Virus record (IMG/VR): IMGVR_UViG_3300044646_002660
Span: 1 to 37,617 of that record
Strand: one strand, 5' to 3'
Length of the DNA: 37,617 nucleotides
Source of the DNA: a virus
The notes beneath the pieces were generated by a model. The model was not told where the DNA came from. It ran no database searches and saw nothing but the letters and a program-made list of their open reading frames with translations. The position numbers were made by a program, and so were the translations under genes. Every line of letters starts with the position of its first letter. Positions within the stretch are counted from its first letter, which is position 1. Below, in pieces: positions 17,422 to 34,903 of this stretch.

Positions 17422-19131
17422 CTATTTCAGAACCCACCAGGCGACGCCGTGGAGTTTCGTGCAGTCGCCGAAGTGGTCTTCGGCGACTTTTTTCCAGAAG
17501 AATGGGGCGAGGCGGGAGTTTTTGTTTTGAAGGAGTTGCTGGCCGGTGAGGCCGCCGATGAAGTCGGTGCCGGTGTCGGCTGGCAGGTGTAGGATGGGGG
17601 GCATTTTTTTGTTCACGCGCTCGAGGTAGAGCTCGGTCTTCGCAGTGAGATCGACATAGGTGACGAGGCGGAGTGAGGGGTAGCCATTCACGGCGGACTG
17701 GGTCCATGTGCCGAAGCTGGCCGTGGATCCTTTCGATGGCATGTAGACGCCGCCGGATTTCGCACAGACGGTGTAGACACGCTCGGCGGACCAACCGGAA
17801 TCGATGAGACCGAAGCGTGGAGTGAAGATTTTTTCGCCAAAGGCATAGCGGCGGCCGGCCAGGAACTCGGGGCTGATGAGATCCTCGATGGCAAGGACGG
17901 TGCCGTAATCGATGACCCACGACTCGCCGCTCTGGATGCGGGCTTCGACAGACCAGTGGGTCTGGCGTTCGCCGGGATCGGCGCAGAGTGTGAGGATGAC
18001 GGGCTCACAGGGGAGCTGGCTGATGCGGTAGGAAGGATCTCGGAGTGAGAGGATGGCGTCTTCTTTGACCTGAGCGGCGCGGTTTTCCCACGGGATGCCG
18101 AGGAAGTTATTGTAAAAATCGTGTAGGCCGCCGGTGCTGTCTTTTTTTTGCAGGAATATGCGGGCGAGGCTGCCCCAGGAAATCTGAGGAGAATAGAGCG
18201 CGCTGATGTGAGCGGAGATGTGATCGGACGGGGCCTTGGGGTTGCCAGGTATCCACTCGCCTCGGCGGACGAGATCGGTCTGGATGGCTTGGCTCCACGG
18301 GGATTGGCAGGCGGTGCAGTGATAGACGGTATCGCGCTCGACGCCTTCGAGGTCCCACATCCCAGCGAGGTCGCGGTGGTGCTCAGGCCATTTGAGTTGC
18401 TCGAAAACAAGCGGCTGCGCATGGCCGCAATCGGGACAGGTGATGTGAAAGCGATGCTGGGAACCGGCGAGGAATTGAGTCCAGATCGCGCCGGACTCGA
18501 CCGTGGGAGTGGAGGTGAGGCAGGCTTTCGAGACTTTGCGGTAGAAATTCAAGCGGGCCATGGCGAGCTCCAGGGCCGGTGCCTCGAGAGAGGAATCGTC
18601 TGGCCATTTGTCCACCTCATCAGCGAAGAGGTAACGGATCGGGCGGGAGGCCAAGTTGCCTTCGGAACATGCTCCGACGAGCTTCAGCGTGCAGGTAGCG
18701 AAGTGCATTTCCGTTTTGCGGAAATCGTCTTCGTTGGCTGGCAGTAGTGGCTTAAGAGCACGGCATGCGCGGAGGCGAGGATGCAGCTCTCGCTCTGACC
18801 AGGACTTTGCGTTTTCGTTGGTCGAAGTGACATAGAGGATCGGGCCAGGGTCTTCTGAGATCGCCCACATGAGGCAGTTCGCCAACCAGGTGGTGCCGCC
18901 GACCTGAGCCGACTTTACAAAAGTGAGTTGCCTGACGCGGGGATCCGAGAACCACAAGTGGAGCTGCCGGAGGTAGGGAGTGTAGTCCGCATCATAGCGA
19001 CCCGGGCGAGGCGAGAAGCGTTTGTCGAGGGTCACATTTTCCTGAGCCCAATCCAAAGCGGACGGCCTGCGGCGAGGGTCCCAGATGCGAGCGAGTTGCT
19101 CGGCAAGGTCGGCATCAATGAGCGCTGGCAT
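17422..19131 (-). CDS. Terminase large subunit, lambda gpA-like (569 aa)
   Basis: The ATPase domain has a Walker A-like KSAQVGGTT at 73-81 and a Walker B YLFADE at 167-172, as in the gpA family. Two CxxC pairs (C232/C235 in CPDCGH; C272/C275 in CTAC) form the zinc element of gpA proteins. The nuclease domain starts near D385 (LCADPGE), with a second acid at D444 (LIDSGW). The protein cuts concatemeric DNA and drives packaging through the portal. It overlaps terS by 17 bases. The length is close to the lambda protein (641 aa), with a shorter C-terminus. Confidence 0.95.
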   Translation of the reverse strand: MPALIDADLAEQLARIWDPRRRPSALDWAQENVTLDKRFSPRPGRYDADYTPYLRQLHLWFSDPRVRQLTFVKSAQVGGTTWLANCLMWAISEDPGPILYVTSTNENAKSWSERELHPRLRACRALKPLLPANEDDFRKTEMHFATCTLKLVGACSEGNLASRPIRYLFADEVDKWPDDSSLEAPALELAMARLNFYRKVSKACLTSTPTVESGAIWTQFLAGSQHRFHITCPDCGHAQPLVFEQLKWPEHHRDLAGMWDLEGVERDTVYHCTACQSPWSQAIQTDLVRRGEWIPGNPKAPSDHISAHISALYSPQISWGSLARIFLQKKDSTGGLHDFYNNFLGIPWENRAAQVKEDAILSLRDPSYRISQLPCEPVILTLCADPGERQTHWSVEARIQSGESWVIDYGTVLAIEDLISPEFLAGRRYAFGEKIFTPRFGLIDSGWSAERVYTVCAKSGGVYMPSKGSTASFGTWTQSAVNGYPSLRLVTYVDLTAKTELYLERVNKKMPPILHLPADTGTDFIGGLTGQQLLQNKNSRLAPFFWKKVAEDHFGDCTKLHGVAWWVLK

Positions 19132-19714
19132 CTTCGAGGCGGATCTCTTTGGCTGCGCGCATCACATCTTCGATTTCCGAACGAATCTTCGATGCCATTT
19201 CATCGCCGAGTTGTGGAAGGAGGGTCAAAATCCGGTCTGGCAGATTCGAGACGGCAGCGGCCACGGTTGCGGAGTATTGGAGAATGACTTGGTGGTAAAG
19301 GCGTTTACTCACCACATCGCCCGAATCCCGCTGGATGCCAGGCGCGTCTTTTTCCAGACGCCGCAGAGATTCTGTATAATCTCGCCACACACGCCGCAAA
19401 GCTAACTCCATATCTAAATCTCCCGCTGCTTTTGCAAGTTCGGCTCGCTCATAAAAATCAGCAGTGGCTTCTTTCATTTTTCTAATGTGGTTTTCTATAG
19501 AGAGCTCTTTATCTGTCCACTCTCTGGCAACTACAGGAACCGACGGTGTGGCAGCGCCAACTGGAACCATGCCAGCCGCCGCTCGCTCAGCCAGAAATCC
19601 ATTCCACCGAGGGTCCGCCTGGTCGCGCCACTTCCGCACGGCACGCGTCGTTACCCCGTGGCGCGCCGCGCATGCCTTCACAAGATCGGCCTGTTCCCTT
19701 CCGTGTCGTTTCAT
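19115..19714 (-). CDS. Terminase small subunit (199 aa)
   Basis: Residues 1-45 form a helix-turn-helix (EQADLVKACAARHGVTTRAVRKWRDQADPRW), the middle is a charged coiled coil (IENHIRKMKEATADFYERAELAKAAGD, RRVWRDYTESLRRLEK), and the C-terminus is acidic. It starts at 19714 and overlaps terL by 17 bases. TerS recognises the packaging site; the CGGAAC repeat cluster (19741-19779) and iterons (19883-20134) immediately upstream are the natural candidates. Identification is by HTH, gene order and length. Confidence 0.85.
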   Translation of the reverse strand: MKRHGREQADLVKACAARHGVTTRAVRKWRDQADPRWNGFLAERAAAGMVPVGAATPSVPVVAREWTDKELSIENHIRKMKEATADFYERAELAKAAGDLDMELALRRVWRDYTESLRRLEKDAPGIQRDSGDVVSKRLYHQVILQYSATVAAAVSNLPDRILTLLPQLGDEMASKIRSEIEDVMRAAKEIRLEDASAH

Positions 19715-19740
19715 GGTTTACGGAACAGGGAGTTGTCAAA

Positions 19741-19779
19741 CGGAACGGGAACGGAATCGGTTCCGTGGTTCCGGTTCCG
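19741..19779. repeat. Near-palindromic CGGAAC repeat cluster upstream of terS
   Basis: Three right-facing copies of CGGAAC (19741, 19747 as GGGAAC, 19752 as CGGAAT) meet three left-facing copies of GGTTCCG (19759, 19767, 19773), forming a 39-bp imperfect palindrome 27 bases before the terS start. A further CGGAAC lies at 19721. It is a candidate terminase-binding (cos/pac) or operator site; seen in sequence, function inferred. Confidence 0.6.
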
Positions 19780-19882
19780 CATAGTTTCAAGTCCGCTCTC
19801 ATAAAAACAACGGGCGACGGGAAAACTGCATGTTCGAACCCCGCGAAGAGATTCCTTTCACGCGGAACTTGGAGAACTCGAA

Positions 19883-20134
19883 GCACAGGTGCGCAGGTCG
19901 TAAACTTTTCTCTCTAACGATACCCCCACCCATAAATAAAAAACTCAGAAGACCTATGCTACCTATGCCACCTTGCAGAACATAAACGCACGAAACTCTT
20001 GGCAAACAACTTGTGATCCATCCAAAGAGACAAGGTCCTGCGTAGGTGCATAGGTCGCTTGCGATTTATACCAAAGAGGGTGTGGGAGGGCTGATGAGGA
20101 AGCGGAAGCGCGACGACCTGTGCATGACCTGTGC
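19883..20134. repeat. Four paired iterons GACCTRTGC in alternating orientation
   Basis: Eight copies of a 9-mer near GACCTRTGC form four head-to-tail pairs: pair 1 minus (19883 and 19891), pair 2 plus (19951 and 19960), pair 3 minus (20040 and 20048), pair 4 plus (20115 and 20126). The outer pairs carry CCTGTGC/CCTGCGC and the inner pairs mostly CCTATGC, so the array is symmetric about ~20006. Inner pairs also share a CAAGGT flank. The whole lies in a 447-base non-coding gap (19741-20187) with no other credible gene. Best guesses are a replication origin or packaging site. Confidence 0.7.
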
Positions 20135-20143
20135 GGAATGAAA

Positions 20144-20168
20144 AAGGCCCGCCGAGTTGGCGGGCCTT
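20144..20168 (-). terminator. Intrinsic terminator of the replication operon
   Basis: Perfect 10-bp arms (AAGGCCCGCC / GGCGGGCCTT) around a 5-base loop, followed on the minus strand by a TTTTT tract (20145-20141). It ends transcription 20 bases beyond the helicase stop. Confidence 0.9.
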
Positions 20169-20187
20169 GTGAGGTATGGAGCTGGGG

Positions 20188-21810
20188 TTAGTTAAGGACG
20201 GTGAGCGTGTAGAGGCGCTGGCGGTTCTTTCCTTGCTGGCCCCACTTGACCACACGGCCTGTAGGCAAAGTGAACTTCTTGCCGCCATACTGCTCTGCAA
20301 GCAGCTTCCCGAACTTACTCTTGGCCTTTGCCGTGAGAACATAATGGCGAGGGCCGTCCTTACCTTCTCGCTCCTCCTTACCTTCCAGCATCCAGACGAA
20401 TGAGTTGCAGTCGAGCGCAGCCTGAACAACATCTTGGAAGGAGAACTCTGCCACATCATCCACTCCTTTTGCCAACTCAGCCACCAGAGCCATCATGTCA
20501 GCGAGTTCTGAGTTGCCGGACTCTTCGACCGGCAGCGGCTCGATCGGATCTCCGAAACCAGCAAACTCCACCATACCCGCGAATACTTGGCAGAATTGCT
20601 CATATCCACGCACCAAGCGATTGGCCTGCGGGCGGCCAGCCGCGTCCCACTCCCTCACAATAGCCCACAAGGCAGCGAGGATTTGTCCACGCACCTCAGG
20701 CTTCTCCAGGTGTTCATCTGAGATGACCTTCTCGATCCGACGCGCCTGAGGGTCCGACTCGTCGGTCATCATCTTGCAATGAAGGAAGCGGCGAGCCACA
20801 TCGGGCGAGACCTCGAGGTTGTTGCCAGTCAGGAATACTGAGGCGATCTTAGGCACCGCGAACTTCTGCTGGCTGTGCATGCGGCGGCCGCTCCATGTCG
20901 GAGCTGTGAGGAATGCGTTTAGAATCTGCGATTTGAAAAACCCATTGCAGTCATCGAAAAGAATGTAAGGCGACCCAGCCAAGCTCTCAGTGTCCAGAAT
21001 CTTCCGCCATTCCTCCTCAGCCTGTGGCACCGGCTGCACATCGCACGAGCCGATCGTCGTGATGATCGCCATTTGGGCGAGGAGAGTCTTACCCGACCCG
21101 ACCGAGTTCGATGAGAACATAAAGTTCAGCCTACGAGCCGAAGGCCGCAAAAGCGGAGCCGCATACATGGCCAACATCGCCGTCATGACGATAGCCTCAT
21201 TCCTCGACCGGCCATCCGCCTTCCTGTCCCCAAAAGGAAACTCCTTCGTGAAATTCCGCAGGATCGTCTGAGCCTCATCGAGCGGCATATCCATCGCATA
21301 CTCCACGCCAGAATTTTGAGTGAAGGTCTGGGCCTCGTGATCGTATCCGTAGTCCAGAAGCTCGATACGCCCATCCTTCCTCTTCACCGGCTGCCGCACC
21401 GTGGCCACGCGCATCAACTCCCGTTGCCGCGCCAGGAACTGGTCACTCTCCAGAATCGTCGCAGCCGCATCTACCGTCATCGTCTGTGGTTTCTTCTCAA
21501 AAACATTTGGCTTCGGCATATCCCACTTGAAAGTGACCAGGTGATCCTCGCAGTAGGTTCGAAAACGCCGCGCCGACATCTCGACCAATCTGCCATCCTG
21601 AGAGATCGTCATCGCCGAGCGTTGCCGGACGAACACGCCATTATTGCAAAGCACCCCACCGATCTCCCGCGCCATAGTCGAGATCACCGGCACAAGCTCG
21701 ATGTAAGGCAACCCAGCCGCCTCAGTCTTTGTTTCGTTGTTTTCCTCTGGGGAAGGAACAATTCCATATTCAGCCAGTTTGCTATTTATTGTGTCCGTAA
21801 GTTTGCTCAT
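20188..21810 (-). CDS. Replicative helicase, SF3/D5-like ATPase (540 aa)
   Basis: An ATPase core at residues ~225-345: Walker A NSVGSGKT (235-242), Walker B YILFDD (282-287), sensor asparagines in VFLTGNN (325-331), and an arginine pair in DVARRF (337-342). Residues 1-200 are a distinct N-terminal domain, and the C-terminus (TLPTGRVVKWGQQGKNRQRLYTL) looks like a DNA-binding wing. Such proteins unwind DNA at phage origins. It is coupled to the primase (29-bp overlap), followed by a terminator and then by the iteron array, consistent with origin recognition. AAA-type or VirE-like classification is uncertain. Confidence 0.85.
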   Translation of the reverse strand: MSKLTDTINSKLAEYGIVPSPEENNETKTEAAGLPYIELVPVISTMAREIGGVLCNNGVFVRQRSAMTISQDGRLVEMSARRFRTYCEDHLVTFKWDMPKPNVFEKKPQTMTVDAAATILESDQFLARQRELMRVATVRQPVKRKDGRIELLDYGYDHEAQTFTQNSGVEYAMDMPLDEAQTILRNFTKEFPFGDRKADGRSRNEAIVMTAMLAMYAAPLLRPSARRLNFMFSSNSVGSGKTLLAQMAIITTIGSCDVQPVPQAEEEWRKILDTESLAGSPYILFDDCNGFFKSQILNAFLTAPTWSGRRMHSQQKFAVPKIASVFLTGNNLEVSPDVARRFLHCKMMTDESDPQARRIEKVISDEHLEKPEVRGQILAALWAIVREWDAAGRPQANRLVRGYEQFCQVFAGMVEFAGFGDPIEPLPVEESGNSELADMMALVAELAKGVDDVAEFSFQDVVQAALDCNSFVWMLEGKEEREGKDGPRHYVLTAKAKSKFGKLLAEQYGGKKFTLPTGRVVKWGQQGKNRQRLYTLTVLN

Positions 21811-22978
21811 TGCCTTTCATTTGCCTTTCTAGTTCGCCAGCAGCAGAGTGCAGCCAAGCGTCAAATTTTCCGTAAAACCGGCACGCGTGTGCCGTCCGCG
21901 CCGTATCCGGTTGAGGATACTGCCCATCCCTGTCCGCTGCCGCTGAGACCCGCACGGCCTCCGCACGCCAACTCCTCAACACATCCCTCCGAGGCATGAT
22001 GTCCTCGAGCGTCAAATCCGGTGCCGACGGCGCGAAATAAAGGAGCTTTTGCTCCTTCTGCCCACGCCAGCACGCAGGCAGTCGAGTCAACCGAACAGCC
22101 GAGAGAGCCCCCGGATCCGCCCCAGTCACCACCAGTTGCATCACCTTCCGCTTCGTAGCATCCCACTCCGCCTTAGTCGCCGCATCCACACGCACCAAGG
22201 CGTGCACCGAGCGCCCGCCAGAAGTCGTAACGGCAGCGATGTTAGGCACGAGCCGAGCCAAAGCCCCCAGCCACAAACGCACCGGGGCCTCATCGCTCTC
22301 GAGAACCATCCATCGCCAGGACAACACCGACTCCTCCGACCGGCGCGACATCTTTCCCAGGCGAGGATTCGGGCGCGACTTGCCATCGACCGGTTGAGCG
22401 AGAAACCAAATCCCCTCCGGTCCCCGAGTCGGAATCCTCTCCACCGGCCAGATCGCCTGCCCCTGCGATTTATACTCCGAAAAAACAACAACCCGCTCAC
22501 CAGCAGCCGCATTGTAAAGACGAGCGAGGAAATCCTCAGCCGACACCGTAGCCGGATCCACCTCAGAGCGATTCGCCAGCCAAGGGAGATCAACCTCCTC
22601 AGCCAAATCCCCAGCGACCCGCCGCAATGCCTCCACATCGAACTGAGGCTTCGGCCGAGGTTTACTCACCGGCCGCCGTTCCAGGCTCCCCCCCCTCGGA
22701 GCCTCAGCCCCTTGAAGTAAATACCCATCAGCTCCAGGACCATTGAGAGCAGAGTCGATCTTATGTTCCAGTTCACCAGTAGTCCACTTCTCCGCATTCC
22801 CCTGGTTCCACTCCTCGAGAAGCGCCAACGCATCCGAATGAGGAAGCCGAAAACCCTTCACAAGAGCCTTTGCCACAAGCAGAGTGTGCGTGTGCCCACC
22901 AGCCCCAGAAATTGCCGGACCAATCTTCGAGACATACCGGCGCGCCCTCTCCACAACCGGAACTTTTTCCTTGCTCAC
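21782..22978 (-). CDS. Primase: PriCT-like N-domain plus primase-polymerase-like core (398 aa)
   Basis: Residues 9-80 (ARRYVSKIGPAISGAGGH, VKGFRLPHSDALALLEEWN, ELEHKIDSAL) match the PriCT-type domain found in replication proteins of phages and mobile elements in PVC-group bacteria. Residues ~220-310 resemble an archaeo-eukaryotic primase core (VLESDEAP, TTSGGRSVHALVRV, ADPGALSAVRLTRLP). It would synthesise primers for the helicase encoded next. The start is a GTG at 22978 preceded by a good GGGAGGGA Shine-Dalgarno. It is divergent from the integrase across attP. Catalytic acids (E227, D229) are the best candidates, not confirmed. Confidence 0.75.
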   Translation of the reverse strand: MSKEKVPVVERARRYVSKIGPAISGAGGHTHTLLVAKALVKGFRLPHSDALALLEEWNQGNAEKWTTGELEHKIDSALNGPGADGYLLQGAEAPRGGSLERRPVSKPRPKPQFDVEALRRVAGDLAEEVDLPWLANRSEVDPATVSAEDFLARLYNAAAGERVVVFSEYKSQGQAIWPVERIPTRGPEGIWFLAQPVDGKSRPNPRLGKMSRRSEESVLSWRWMVLESDEAPVRLWLGALARLVPNIAAVTTSGGRSVHALVRVDAATKAEWDATKRKVMQLVVTGADPGALSAVRLTRLPACWRGQKEQKLLYFAPSAPDLTLEDIMPRRDVLRSWRAEAVRVSAAADRDGQYPQPDTARTAHACRFYGKFDAWLHSAAGELERQMKGNEQTYGHNK

Positions 22979-23034
22979 AACTCCCTCCCCGTGCAGAGTG
23001 CCGTGCGTTGCACACCGGCAACCCCAGAGAAATT

Positions 23035-23201
23035 TGTGGGAGTCGTGTGGGAGTCTCCCGCAAGTGCAACAAAATCAAGAGCTAAACTTGCCCTGTGGTG
23101 TAATGGTAAGCAATATCCAGAAAAAACTTTCGTTGATTTGCAACTACTTACAACTTTATCCCACTTTAAAATCCTTGAGGCGTGTGGGAGGTTGTGGGAG
23201 T
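23035..23201. other. Candidate attP: paired arm-type repeats around a tRNA-like core
   Basis: The octamer TGTGGGAG occurs at 23035, 23046, 23183 and 23193: two tandem pairs, each with 10-11-bp spacing (one helical turn), on either side of a tRNA-like segment at 23089-23112. Direct repeats flanking a core next to a tyrosine integrase are the layout of lambda-type attP arms. The arms lie in the 233-base gap between the divergent primase and integrase genes. Integration has not been shown. Confidence 0.6.
23089..23112 (+). other. tRNA 5'-half-like segment, possible attP core
   Basis: TGCCCTGTGGTGTAATGGTA has the acceptor strand, T-G spacer and D-arm (GTG TAATGGTA) of a bacterial tRNA, most like tRNA-Gln. 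Downstream sequence (AATATCCAG, then A-rich) has no anticodon stem, T-arm or 3' acceptor strand, so it is only a half. Phages often integrate in tRNA genes, though most use the 3' half; a 5'-half core would be unusual. Confidence 0.45.
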
Positions 23202-23211
23202 TTCGGTGTGC

Positions 23212-24237
23212 ATGGCTTACATCACAAAAACGAGGAAGAGCGTTTATTGGGTTCTGAGGTATCGTTGCCTTGATACTGGCAAGTGGCGGGACCGCTCCAC
23301 GCGGTGTCGGCATGATGATGCCAAGCAGACTCGGGCGGCACAGCGGATGGCTGAGGAGGCGAGTGCTTTGGAGGCCAAGGTGGGGCCGGAGGCCTCGGGA
23401 GATTTCTCGGCGTGGGCGCTGGATTACATACGGCGGCACTACACGAGCGAGTCGAGCCGGAAGCGCTACGAGGCCGCGTGGATGCGGATTCTGGAGTGGG
23501 CGCGGGTGCGAGGCATACGGCATCCCGCCCATGTGCGCTACGAGCATGCCACCGATTTTTTGGAATGGCGCAAGGCTCAGGAGGCCAGCCACAATACCGC
23601 CCGCCTCGAGCTGAAGTTTCTCTCCTTCATCCTCCAAGAGGCCCTGCGTCGGGAGCTGATTCAGAAGAATCCGATTGCCCTGGCTAAAGTCCCACGCACT
23701 CCCGCAAAGGTGAAGCCGGAGTTCGATTCGGCGGATTTCAAGAAAGCGCGGGCGGCCTTCACCGCACGGAAGAGCGCGCCGTGGATGCTCACGGCCTTTG
23801 AGATTTGCGCGCATCTCGGCTGCCGCTTCCGCGAGGCCGAGCTGGCCCGCGAGGATGTGGACTTCGAGCAGCGCATCATTTGGATCACAGACTCGAAGCG
23901 CAAGCCGGGCGACCCGCGCAAGCGCTTCAGCGTCCCGTTGCCCGATTCGCTCGCCAAGCACTTGCAAGCCGTCTTTAAAAAGCGCGACCGCACCACGCCG
24001 GATCTGCGCTTTGGGGAGCATAACAGGCAGTTCAACTTGACTCTGAAGGAGGCCACCGGAGCGACATCCCACAGCCTCCGCGTCTCTTTCGTGACTCGTT
24101 GTCATCGGGCAGGCCTTAGCGAGAGCCAAGCGATGCGGCTGGTGAATCACTCCACCCGCCTTGTGCATGCGATTTATTCTCGCCTGTCCGTAGAGGATGC
24201 CCGGGCAGCGGCTGCGAAGGTCCTCCCGCCGATTTAG
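23212..24237 (+). CDS. int: Tyrosine recombinase (phage integrase, 341 aa)
   Basis: The start is the ATG at 23212 (MAYITKTRKS), with GGGAG 11 bases upstream; an upstream GTG at 23182 is less likely because it lies in an arm-type repeat. An arm-binding N-terminus (1-60) is followed by a core-binding SAM-like domain (~62-155). The catalytic domain has Arg205 (GCRFREAEL), Lys229, His287-x-x-Arg290 (HSLR), His313 and nucleophile Tyr322 (HAIYSRL), the complete family set. It catalyses site-specific integration and excision at attP immediately upstream. The only long early gene on the plus strand here, it overlaps the excisionase-like gene tail to tail. Confidence 0.93.
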   Translation: MAYITKTRKSVYWVLRYRCLDTGKWRDRSTRCRHDDAKQTRAAQRMAEEASALEAKVGPEASGDFSAWALDYIRRHYTSESSRKRYEAAWMRILEWARVRGIRHPAHVRYEHATDFLEWRKAQEASHNTARLELKFLSFILQEALRRELIQKNPIALAKVPRTPAKVKPEFDSADFKKARAAFTARKSAPWMLTAFEICAHLGCRFREAELAREDVDFEQRIIWITDSKRKPGDPRKRFSVPLPDSLAKHLQAVFKKRDRTTPDLRFGEHNRQFNLTLKEATGATSHSLRVSFVTRCHRAGLSESQAMRLVNHSTRLVHAIYSRLSVEDARAAAAKVLPPI

Positions 24238-25358: not shown

Positions 25359-25931
25359 TTATGCCTTTCGTTTTGCCCACGAGGTTTTTGCTGCTTCGCG
25401 GTAGATCTCCCGTGAGCTGGAGGCCTTGCGAAATTTGAAGACACCGATTTTGAGGAGGTCGGCCCAAGTGGTGACATAGTAGGAAATGAGCGAGCGGGTT
25501 ACGCCGAGTTCGCGGGCCACCTCGGCTTGGCTGTGGGTGCCGTTGAGTTCAGCGAGGCCGGTCGCCAGGGCGAGGGCGCGCACCAGGGCGCGGAGGTTTT
25601 TGGTCGGTTTGATGAGAAAGGAGACGATGAGGTTGAGCTGCTCGGCTTTGGCCCAGTCCACTTCGCGGGCCACGGCGACTTGGTGCCATTCCAGCACGCG
25701 GGTCGCCTCCTCGAGGCCGAGGTTCAGATTTTCGGCGAGGATCCACTCGGGCTTGTCCACATCGAAGGCATCGGGGTCGGGGAATGTCTCCAGATACTCC
25801 TCCTCCACCGTGGGCAGAGCGGCGACGGGCTCGAGGGCGGCAGATACCTCCTCGCGCTTGAGCGGCTCGAGGCCGTCGAGCCAGTTTTTGAGCAGGGCTT
25901 CCTGCTCGAGTTCTTGCGGCGTGGGCTTCAT
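25359..25931 (-). CDS. Helix-turn-helix early regulator (190 aa)
   Basis: The start is the ATG at 25931 (MKPTPQELEQEALLK) with a purine-rich GGAGGAGG just upstream. An in-frame extension to 26000 would only encode the intergenic repeat (TTEDTESTEEE) and is rejected. The C-terminal third carries an HTH (SQAEVARELGVTRSLISYYVTTW, residues ~137-160), and the acidic N-terminus (EYLETFPDPDAFDVDKPEW) precedes a hydrophobic helix pair. It is a likely DNA-binding regulator or ParB-like protein in the early operon. Target unknown. Confidence 0.75.
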   Translation of the reverse strand: MKPTPQELEQEALLKNWLDGLEPLKREEVSAALEPVAALPTVEEEYLETFPDPDAFDVDKPEWILAENLNLGLEEATRVLEWHQVAVAREVDWAKAEQLNLIVSFLIKPTKNLRALVRALALATGLAELNGTHSQAEVARELGVTRSLISYYVTTWADLLKIGVFKFRKASSSREIYREAAKTSWAKRKA

Positions 25932-25933
25932 TC

Positions 25934-25970
25934 CCTCCTCCTCCGTGCTCTCTGTGTCCTCTGTGGTTAA
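25934..25970 (-). repeat. TTAACCACAGAGG-type extragenic repeat serving as leader
   Basis: The 35-base gap between two early genes reads TTAACCACAGAGGACACAG and on to GGAGGAGGAGGG on the minus strand. The TAA is the stop of the 62-aa gene and the 3' end is the Shine-Dalgarno of the next. Strings of this form are widespread as extragenic repeats in many bacterial genomes from memory; a search would be needed to confirm. Confidence 0.6.
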
Positions 25971-26155
25971 TCCCTGAGCTGCTTGCGCAACTCGGCACAC
26001 GCCTCAGCCACTTCCTCCGGTGTGCACCAGCGGTCGCCGGCGGGGGGCTGCGGGGGCCATGTTTCGCGTTTCGGCGGGGTGGATGGCCTGCGGGCGAGGC
26101 GGTCCACGGCGGCGAGGTGACGGCGGGCGGCGGCGAGGTGGGCGGAAAGAGTCAT
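25967..26155 (-). CDS. Small early protein (62 aa)
   Basis: Starts MTLSAHLAAARRHLAAVDRLARR at 26155; longer in-frame versions would read through the preceding gene. It is an arginine-rich helix followed by a proline-rich middle and a helical end (CTPEEVAEACAELRKQLRD). No family is recognised. It is part of the run of tightly packed small genes of the early operon. Confidence 0.55.
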   Translation of the reverse strand: MTLSAHLAAARRHLAAVDRLARRPSTPPKRETWPPQPPAGDRWCTPEEVAEACAELRKQLRD

Positions 26156-26885: not shown

Positions 26886-27037
26886 AGGTTGAGAAGTGAG
26901 ATGTGGATGGCTGGAATGCCGTGCTGGAGGAAAAAGCGGGTCTTTGCGGAGCTGAAGCCAGCGCACCGCAGGAGGGTGCGGATCTGGCCGCGCACAGGGT
27001 CGAGGCCCTCGCAGAGGTAGAGGCGGGGGTGTTTCAT
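26882..27037 (-). CDS. Small basic protein (51 aa)
   Basis: Starts MKHPRLYLCEGLDPVRGQIRTLLRCAGFSS at 27037, overlapping the Bro-N stop (ATGA). It has two cysteines and basic residues, and ends ISLLNL. It belongs to the chain of coupled early genes. No function can be assigned. Confidence 0.55.
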   Translation of the reverse strand: MKHPRLYLCEGLDPVRGQIRTLLRCAGFSSAKTRFFLQHGIPAIHISLLNL

Positions 27038-27816
27038 TCGGGTTGAGCGAGTTGGGTGAGAGTGAAGACGCGGGAGCGGTTCTTGCCGTGGCGTTGAAAA
27101 AGGATGCCGTCGAAGGCCTTGCTGCACTGCCGGTCACAGAGCAGGCCGAAGCGGGAGGCGATGGAGGGGCTCAGGATCGTCTTGGTCTTGAGCCATGTGG
27201 AGAAGAGGCCCTCGGCCACGGCCACTTGCCGCATCTCCAGGCTGCTCCACTCCTTGTCCTGGTCGCGGCTCCAGAGTGCGGCCACGAGAGCGGAAAATTC
27301 CTTGTGCTCCCCGTCCAGCACCTCGAGCGCTTGGGTGGTCTCGGTGGCTTGGCCCAGCTTCCAGCCATTGCGGTAGTATTGGCCCACGAGCCCTGCCATG
27401 GCCGTGGCCTTCTCCACCGACATGCGGCCCTCGTAGAGATCGCAGATCGCCAGTTCCAGCACCTGCTGGATGCGGCCGATGCCGGTGAGCACCGCATACC
27501 CGCCCGTGCGCCGGATCGCTGGCAGCACCTCGCCAGTCACCCACTTACGGAAAGCCTTCGCCTCCGGCTTGCGGGATTTGAAGATTAAGGCATACAGGCC
27601 GGACTCGGAAATCGTCTGAATCTTTTGAGCCCCGCCAAGGGTGTCGGCAATAGCGACACCCTTTTCATCATCTTCGAGCCCTTGCACAGCATCGCGGTGG
27701 TTTGAAATATCCAAAGCACGGCAGACATCGGCGGCGACGAACCATGTTTGCCCCGCGCGATCCATGGCTCGAACAGGCGTGCTCTTGAAATCAAATGTCT
27801 GGATTTCGCCTTTCAT
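27034..27816 (-). CDS. Bro-N antirepressor (260 aa)
   Basis: Residues 5-105 form a BRO-N domain: VRAMDRAGQTWFVAADVCRAL, NHRDAV..L.DDEKGV, TISESGLYALIFKSRKPEAKAFRKWVTGEVLPAIR. Residues ~110-260 form a second, Ant-type domain (KATAMAGLVGQYYRNGW, a basic end VFTLTQL). Antirepressors of this kind bind phage repressors and promote the lytic cycle; here the targets may be the RHH regulators at 28.3-29.0 kb. It overlaps genes at both ends by ATGA. Confidence 0.85.
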   Translation of the reverse strand: MKGEIQTFDFKSTPVRAMDRAGQTWFVAADVCRALDISNHRDAVQGLEDDEKGVAIADTLGGAQKIQTISESGLYALIFKSRKPEAKAFRKWVTGEVLPAIRRTGGYAVLTGIGRIQQVLELAICDLYEGRMSVEKATAMAGLVGQYYRNGWKLGQATETTQALEVLDGEHKEFSALVAALWSRDQDKEWSSLEMRQVAVAEGLFSTWLKTKTILSPSIASRFGLLCDRQCSKAFDGILFQRHGKNRSRVFTLTQLAQPE

Positions 27817-28678: not shown

Positions 28679-29011
28679 ATGAGCGCAGAAGAAAAATTTG
28701 TAGGCTTTCGGGCCAATCCAACCCTTGTTGAACAAATCAAAAAGCGTGCCAAGTCAGAGCACCGAAGCCTTGCAGCCCATATGAGGTGGCTTGTAGAGCA
28801 GGATTTGTGGCAAAACAATATGCCCACACTCATGGCCGCAGAGACCCCCGAGAGCGTTGACTTGCCACAGGACAAGACTCAGGGAAAATACCAGACTGCC
28901 GCAGCGACGAAGGCGGCAGAGCGTGCTGGTGTCAAGACTATCAGGCCATCGAAGAGTTTCGATGGTTCGTCCTCAACAGCTACGACGGGCAACTCCCACC
29001 AGGTTGGGTAG
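28679..29011 (+). CDS. Ribbon-helix-helix regulator B (110 aa)
   Basis: Residues 1-45 (EKFVGFRANPTLVEQIKKRAKSEHRSLAAHMRWLVEQDL) fit the RHH pattern (strand, helix A, helix B) and resemble RHH regulator A. Residues 46-110 are a flexible, basic and serine-rich tail (AAATKAAERAGVKTIRPSKSF). There is no Shine-Dalgarno sequence; the inverted repeat 28659-28677 abuts the ATG. It is the first gene of the plus-strand immunity operon and may be the lysogenic repressor, with A as the opposing switch protein. No HTH repressor of the CI type is visible anywhere in the window. Confidence 0.75.
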   Translation: MSAEEKFVGFRANPTLVEQIKKRAKSEHRSLAAHMRWLVEQDLWQNNMPTLMAAETPESVDLPQDKTQGKYQTAAATKAAERAGVKTIRPSKSFDGSSSTATTGNSHQVG

Positions 29012-33985: not shown

Positions 33986-34903
33986 CTAGTAGCTGCCTCC
34001 ATCGATGACGCTCTCCATCGCGGAGATGCGAAGTTCGTGGTCGGCCACATCGGCTTCGACTGCGCTCAGGCGGCTGTCGGCGCTGGCGTTCTCCAAGGTC
34101 GTGATGCGGTTGCTCAACGAGGTATCGGCTGTCGAACGGGTCGAGCTCTCTGCGTCCAGGTTGGTCTGGACGAGGGCGATGTCGGCTTCGAGGCCGGACA
34201 CGTCGGAAGCGCGGGAAGCGGCTTCCGCAGAGATCGCGGCGATGCGGGCGGACTCTTCGTCCAGGATGTCTTGCTCGGCGGCGCTGACGCGGGTGGTCAG
34301 GGCGCTGAGGTCGCTCGAGACGGTGTCGATGTTGCCTTGGAGGCTGGAGTCGCCGGAGGTGCGGGCGGTCTCTTCGGCGGCGATCGCGGTGTTGATCGAG
34401 GAGATGGCGGATGCCAGGGCGTTGTCGTTCGTGAGATCGACGCTGTTGATGAGGTCGACGATTTCTTTGAAATTATCGGCATCAGCGCTTGATGCAGAAA
34501 GAATTGCGTCGATGCGGCCTTTCTCAGTCAGGATTTTCGCGTCGAGAGCGGAGTCGCCGGAAACGCGCGAAGCGGCCTCTGCCGAAACAGCGGCGGCACG
34601 GTCGAGAAGCTCTTGAGCGAGGCCTGCGGCGATGACTCCTTCGGCAGCAGTGGCGCGGCTGATCTCGTTGTTGAGGTTCGTTGTGAGGGTCGAATCCGCT
34701 GCGGAGCGAAGCGAGGCCTCGGCTGCTACGGCGTCGTCAGCATAGGTCTTCTTTGCGAAGATGTGCTCGCCCGCGATTGCGAGTGGGCCGTTGGCTGTGC
34801 CGATGAAAAGTGACTTGTTTTGCAGGTCCATTGCCAGCTCGCCTGTGGTCAGGGAAACTGGCGAACCGGAGCCGCGCTTGATTCTCAAAATAGGATTGCT
34901 CAT
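33986..34903 (-). CDS. Coiled-coil tail fibre protein, complete allele (305 aa)
   Basis: Residues 1-50: MSNPILRIKRGSGSPVSLTTGELAMDLQNKSLFIGTA. Residues 55-290 are almost continuous alanine/serine/aspartate heptads with repeated units like SAEAASRVSGDSAL, EETARTSGDSSLQGNI, AEQDILDEESARIA. These predict a long trimeric coiled-coil shaft. The last 30 residues (NASADSRLSAVEADVADHELRI) keep the pattern. It shares its first ~105 residues (127 exact bases) with the gene cut at base 1; same length in bases if the map closes. It is preceded by a C/A-rich leader. Confidence 0.85.
   Translation of the reverse strand: MSNPILRIKRGSGSPVSLTTGELAMDLQNKSLFIGTANGPLAIAGEHIFAKKTYADDAVAAEASLRSAADSTLTTNLNNEISRATAAEGVIAAGLAQELLDRAAAVSAEAASRVSGDSALDAKILTEKGRIDAILSASSADADNFKEIVDLINSVDLTNDNALASAISSINTAIAAEETARTSGDSSLQGNIDTVSSDLSALTTRVSAAEQDILDEESARIAAISAEAASRASDVSGLEADIALVQTNLDAESSTRSTADTSLSNRITTLENASADSRLSAVEADVADHELRISAMESVIDGGSY
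34588..34714. repeat. 127-bp exact repeat, copy 2 (matches 1-127)
   Basis: This stretch lies inside the coding sequence of the complete coiled-coil fibre gene and equals bases 1-127. Immediately downstream (34715 onwards) the sequence drops to roughly 80% identity with 128-316. It is the branch point of two alternative cassettes. Confidence 0.9.

Follow-up and report, generated by a model that had tools for sequence, protein, structure and literature searches.

A four-node repeat array beside the cos site of a temperate tailed phage is most likely read by the C-terminal domain of the phage's own D5-type helicase

In a temperate tailed phage, the gene for a D5-type helicase is followed immediately by an array of short repeats. 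This array is very probably an iteron-type replication origin, and it would be bound by the C-terminal domain of that same helicase. The phage is represented by a 37.6-kb virus record, and this whole stretch of 37,617 nucleotides is referred to below as the window. The array, the conservation of its nodes, the covariation of its repeated word with helicase residues and the physical ends of the genomes are all observed at the level of sequence.

The terminase and structural genes of this phage are located on the minus strand. They include terL (17422-19131), coding for a GpA (lambda) family protein with GpA_ATPase and GpA_nuclease domains (PF05876, PF20454), as well as terS (19115-19714), which has a weak phrog_57 match and is the first gene at the left genome end. 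The replication cassette, also on the minus strand, codes for a D5-like AAA+ helicase of 540 aa (20188-21810), which is the proposed array-reading initiator, and for a primase-like protein (21782-22978). Further genes code for a tyrosine integrase (23182-24237, plus strand), an HTH protein (25359-26000) and a BRO-N antirepressor (27034-27816). Whereas a satellite would lack TerL, portal and tail genes of its own, the window contains TerL, a lambda-family portal, a head protease and a tape measure gene. The host is probably a Verrucomicrobiota bacterium because contigs of close relatives are binned with Chthoniobacter flavus and with an uncultured Spartobacteria genome; one relative is found in a Burkholderiaceae bin. 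Several smaller features of the window should also be mentioned. Opposite the integrase gene there is a minus-strand ORF of 397 aa (22975-24168) that is probably the integrase's shadow, and a plus-strand ORF of 110 aa (28679-29011) with weak ParA/Arc-repressor-like PHROG matches possibly codes for a small ribbon-helix-helix protein. Positions 1-127 are repeated at 34588-34714, inside tail-fibre-like genes, and the record probably ends inside this repeated tail gene rather than covering a whole genome. Rfam and tRNA scans gave no matches.

The array is housed in a non-coding gap of 473 bp (19715-20187) between terS and the helicase gene, where eight copies of an 8-bp core, ACCTRYGC, occur within 252 bp (19883-20134). 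These cores form four tandem pairs, or nodes, in the orientation -,+,-,+ with centres ~70-90 bp apart. Node A (20116-20134, plus strand) has two ACCTGTGC words with cores at 20116-20123 and 20127-20134, and node B (20040-20055, minus strand) has the words ACCTACGC and ACCTATGC with cores at 20040-20047 and 20048-20055. Node C (19952-19968, plus strand), which is the most regular node of the window's clade and adjoins AT-rich DNA, has two ACCTATGC words with cores at 19952-19959 and 19961-19968, while node D (19883-19898, minus strand) has the words ACCTGTGC and ACCTGCGC with cores at 19883-19890 and 19891-19898. The ACCTACGC copy at 20040 and the ACCTGCGC copy at 19891 deviate from GACCTRTGC. 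When 400 windows were simulated with a first-order Markov model, the maximum was 2 cores per 250 bp as compared to the 8 observed. Eight more ACCTRYGC copies are scattered over the 37.6 kb outside of the array, none of them clustered, and a scan with the 9-mer allowing one mismatch agrees with this. A preliminary description of this DNA had proposed such an ordered array of eight repeats in the gap, and this is borne out, as are its confinement to the gap and its conservation, with pair positions and orientations kept across the window's clade. The mirror symmetry that it had also described, with G in the outer pairs and A in the inner pairs, is present in this phage but is lost in relatives such as L036, L037 and L014. 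Node A begins ~50 bp past the helicase stop codon in the window, and a terminator-like hairpin with a T-run, read on the minus strand, is present behind the helicase gene at 20141-20168. AT content is ~60-73% around nodes B-C versus 35-45% at the edges. Cumulative GC skew of the window peaks near 19 kb and is uninformative as an origin marker.

Relatives were fetched by TerL, and their helicase loci were better recovered by alignment searches than by single-sequence patterns, which found few of them. The array-behind-helicase layout is kept in about 40 relatives, and among these the 8-bp word differs while the four nodes stay at near-fixed positions. Specifically, the word of the window's clade is GCATAGGT, the reverse complement of ACCTATGC, and words found elsewhere are GCGTAGGT, AGGACTAT, CCGACTAT, AGGACGGT, AGGACGAT, CCGACTGT, CCGATGGT, AGGCAGGT, TGGCAGGT and GTGCAGGT. 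These words were assigned by de novo counts and inspection, partly by eye, after the protein tails had been seen. Measured in 39 arrays from AGGAATCT, which is part of an invariant block described below, the node centres are at -268, -194, -106 and -28 (sd 5-9), with 231 of the 254 words located inside the four nodes. Each array holds its own word without unrelated words. There are irregular cases as well: a node is missing in some arrays (for example node C in L167, L168 and L184), node spacing is shifted in the GTGCAGGT group, L003, L007 and L056 have 3-5 good words only, and the CCGACTGT arrays have just two clear copies apiece.

Changes in the word are matched by changes in the helicase. 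In a second clade of relatives the helicase is split into two genes, HelN and HelC, and HelC (367 aa) aligns without gaps among 25 relatives. Columns 360 and 361 are the only two of 149 variable amino acid columns in these 25 relatives that separate words starting with AG from words starting with CC, and column 328 is the sole one of the 149 that separates A from G at base 7. The same positions are recovered at the DNA level, where 2 of 570 variable columns perfectly match word bases 1-2 (position 1 of codons 360 and 361) and one of 570 matches base 7 (position 1 of codon 328). Among synonymous sites, none of the 332 variable third positions, 63 of which are in the last 67 codons, match the word. 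For the wing residues, ND or NE is paired with AG at bases 1-2, DN or DK with CC, NS with TG, NA with GT and RQ with GC; for the helix residue, T is paired with A at base 7, and A, C, G or S with G. On a tree of helicase residues 1-300 there are six word changes at bases 1-2 and five at base 7, and an identical wing-word pairing is found on two distinct helicase backgrounds. Independent tree pairs were also compared by sign tests, which had too few supported pairs (2 switches on starred branches) and were not significant. As a control, 762 variable columns from primase, HelN, TerS and TerL were compared with the word. Base 7 was matched by none of these columns and bases 1-2 by a single one, an isolated primase column that is a chance match, with HelN giving none; primase and HelN were rejected as readers on these grounds. 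Because the word bases covary with codons 328, 360 and 361 and the controls do not, the most likely reader of the array is the winged-helix-like domain at the C-terminus of the helicase, and the array itself is most likely an iteron origin in the style of SaPI/PICI and not a site for terminase. The reading residues show almost no variation in the clade to which the window belongs, and S498, R530 and Q531 were assigned by alignment and homology to HelC. Variable small ORFs lie between HelN and HelC in L126, L127, L132, L136 and L137, 2.2-3.4 kb before terL.

The C-terminal domain (residues 431-540, coded by 20191-20520 on the minus strand) was modelled with a pLDDT of 90 as a helix, strand, helix, two strands, helix, strand and final beta-hairpin. 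In this model S498 (codon 20317-20319, equivalent to HelC 328, which covaries with base 7) is in helix 494-507, while R530 and Q531 (codons 20218-20223, equivalent to HelC 360-361, which covary with bases 1-2) are in the loop that joins strands 520-526 and 533-538. Such an arrangement in the model corresponds to a recognition helix plus a wing. The isolated domain had no significant fold match in the PDB and so is called winged-helix-like by topology. Foldseek with a moderate-quality model of the whole helicase (pLDDT 68) matched MPXV E5, NrS-1, PriRep1 with dsDNA and the SaPI5 primase-helicase (E 3e-6 to 1e-4), whereas a PDB sequence search matched no chain and Pfam gave no match for the helicase.

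The array also adjoins the packaging site, with 57 bp between them. Nine contigs from different metagenomes all start at the same base, with GTTTG(C/A)C or GTTTAG, ~700 bp before terL, and three contigs of the second clade (TerL 54-59% identical) start with GTTGCCG(C/A)C. The end of L082, GTTTGCCAGTCG, is identical to the opening 12 nt of both L004 and L018. Furthermore, three complete records of near 30 kb (G012, G013 and G014; 30012, 30945 and 29245 nt) have the same 9 nt at both ends, each with its own sequence (GTTGCCGAC, GTTGCCGCC and GTGGTCGTA); the match in the third was read straight from its printed ends. These matching termini look like cohesive ends that have been filled in; they are 12 nt long for the window's clade and 9 nt for one other clade, and each genome has an overhang sequence of its own. 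From the shared contig termini and matching record ends, cosN in the window is therefore placed at 19815-19826, where the putative 12-nt end is GTTTTCCCGTCG read on the minus strand. The window spans this site and its genome ends are assigned by homology, such that 19826 would be the first base of the left end, which would extend in the direction of terS. On the right-end side of cosN there is an invariant block, AAGGAATCTCTT (also given as AAGGAATCTYTT; 19846-19857, minus strand), whose AGGAATCT is at a fixed distance of 42-43 nt from the right end in the two clades. This block, which is also present in Akkermansia phage Moulinsart (ON453896), is probably part of cos. Between cosN and terS there is a cluster of GGAAC/GTTCC repeats (19722-19778) that is a candidate cosB-like terminase-binding site. 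In L133, L134, L137 and G016, which have differing TerS, these repeats are replaced by CGAAC, CGCATA and GACGCA types, which suggests that TerS and the cosB-like site may be a second matched pair of protein and word. Contigs of the more distant L043, L044 and L045 (TerL 44%) begin either at GTTTAGGCGGCG or 8 nt ahead of it, which is likely a further cos end of this type. L178 and L180, two contigs that come from separate metagenomes, end ~470 nt past the helicase gene at ...TTGC, just before a AAGGAATC block, and the position of cosN provides no explanation for this.

This proximity raises the question of whether the array is instead the terminase-binding part of cos, with TerS bound to the four nodes and positioning TerL to cut the neighbouring cosN. 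Ordered repeats are usual for TerS sites near cos, and the array is 57 bp from a physically supported cosN and beside terS and terL of the GpA (lambda) type. However, TerS is 87-95% identical among L127, L132, L126 and L136 though their words differ, L127 and L137 share GACTAT with TerS proteins that are only 44% identical, and no variable TerS or TerL column matches the word, which follows the helicase residues instead. The separate GGAAC cluster on the terS side is what varies with TerS type. We consider this explanation improbable, and TerS and TerL were rejected as array readers by the conserved TerS with changed words and the lack of matching columns. The packaging site that had been suggested in the preliminary description thus does exist nearby, but as an element separate from the array, outside the coordinates described and with its own conserved block and repeat cluster, while its suggestion of TerS as the array binder is not supported. 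The origin and helicase option that it had listed is strongly supported by the residue-to-base covariation. It is also quite improbable that the match between array and helicase tail is a mere result of physical linkage, in which both are swapped together by recombination and the true reader is another protein. The C-terminal codons are <0.5 kb from the array, and replication cassettes are exchanged as blocks (L127 versus L136), yet linkage should also mark nearby silent sites, which the third positions do not show, and the same wing-word pairing is present on two helicase backgrounds. The HTH protein at 25359-26000 was rejected as such a reader, given that it is just 60% identical in L030 despite the latter having the window's word set.

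We regard as very improbable that the nodes are arm-type sites at which the integrase binds attP, or that they are operators for a repressor, a late activator or a partition protein. The phage does code for a tyrosine integrase and a BRO-N antirepressor, and in Moulinsart, an Akkermansia prophage, the terminal att repeat adjoins terS. The integrase gene of the window is ~3 kb from the array, however, which led to rejection of integrase arm sites, and with neither arm sites nor operators would one expect the word to change along with three residues of the helicase. The partition role that had been raised earlier is unsupported, with no partition pair found in the window beyond the weak matches of the 110-aa ORF. 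Returning to the helicase as the reader, note that the covariation addresses what reads the array, not where replication starts, and the array could be an autoregulatory site of the helicase or a site for coordination with packaging.

Under the preferred reading, we infer that the array functions as an origin through direct binding of the helicase, melting of DNA and loading of the helicase, as follows. The eight copies of the 8-bp word in the four nodes would be bound by the winged-helix-like domain, with S498 in the helix and R530 and Q531 at the wing tip touching opposite ends of the word. Multiple helicase subunits, placed on the nodes at their fixed distances, would open the AT-rich stretch around nodes B-C and load the helicase, and the neighbouring primase would begin synthesis. 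The origin would be at the extreme right end of virion DNA because it is 57 bp from cosN, with terS at the left end, and circularisation via cos would join the origin to the terminase genes.

This arrangement resembles that of SaPI Rep and Cch2, where the C-terminal domain binds iterons directly downstream of its own gene (PMC7581432); such reading is shown for Cch2 and reported for SaPI Rep (PMC7581432, PMC6092414). The SaPI/PICI Rep-ori and SCCmec Cch2 systems share with the window a D5-like initiator helicase beside a primase, short iterons that follow immediately after the helicase gene as a probable origin and may surround AT-rich DNA, and a C-terminal iteron reader, indicated here by covariation. 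They differ in being satellites or a cassette rather than complete temperate cos phages of Verrucomicrobiota, and in having either two iteron sets, which flank an AT-rich melting region, or one direct-repeat site, instead of four conserved nodes. Here, moreover, the origin would adjoin the phage's own cosN, and the word changes together with residues of the wing and the helix. Similarly, lambda cos (cosQ-cosN-cosB with GpA/Nu1 terminase) shares the GpA-family TerL, lambda-family portal, cohesive ends (12 nt or 9 nt here), terS placed first at the left end and repeats between cosN and terS. Unlike lambda, these phages have an invariant block towards the right end as well as a putative helicase-read origin within about 60-310 bp of cosN, and their TerS has just a weak terS match. 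Closely related replicons with different iterons are also described for geminivirus/CRESS-DNA Rep and for PLE RepA (PMC12548392, PMC8263062), though the proteins in those cases are unrelated (HUH Rep and RepA_N) to the helicase winged-helix-like domain, in which the change maps to three residues.

More tentatively, and with somewhat less confidence than doubt, these origins may follow a fast-changing lock-and-key code in which a fixed four-node scaffold is kept, the word is rewritten together with a few helicase residues, and wing and helix switch separately. Co-infecting relatives or parasites would in this manner be kept from using or attacking one another's origins, and origin and cos would constitute one exchangeable junction. 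To our knowledge, most work on the specificity of initiators for their origins deals with single pairs. The ~30 natural initiator-origin pairs here differ at few residues and matched bases, with some helicase bodies >97% identical, making a DNA-recognition rule for D5-type helicases directly testable. An uncultured Verrucomicrobiota phage group would also gain a probable origin, a packaging site and genome ends, and the SaPI/PICI origin plan would be extended to full tailed phages. This raises the question of whether repeated word changes are driven by incompatibility, satellites or origin-directed nucleases as in ICP1/PLE (PMC8263062). In PLE, repA and the origin covary, repeated exchanges of specificity map to the 3' end of repA, and a RepA-mimicking phage nuclease appears to select for these swaps (PMC8263062); by analogy, a similar pressure on word change is possible in these phages.

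Finally, in regards to Moulinsart, this is the nearest annotated phage, with 34% identity in TerL and 24% in the helicase, and it has a AAGGAATCTCTTT block upstream of terS as in the window's group. It differs in that its integrase gene is located between the helicase gene and terS. Paired GTGCAT words (L122, 150-175 and 31175-31195) flank its terminal att repeat between integrase and terS, and these pairs may serve as arm sites for the integrase or mark a displaced origin.
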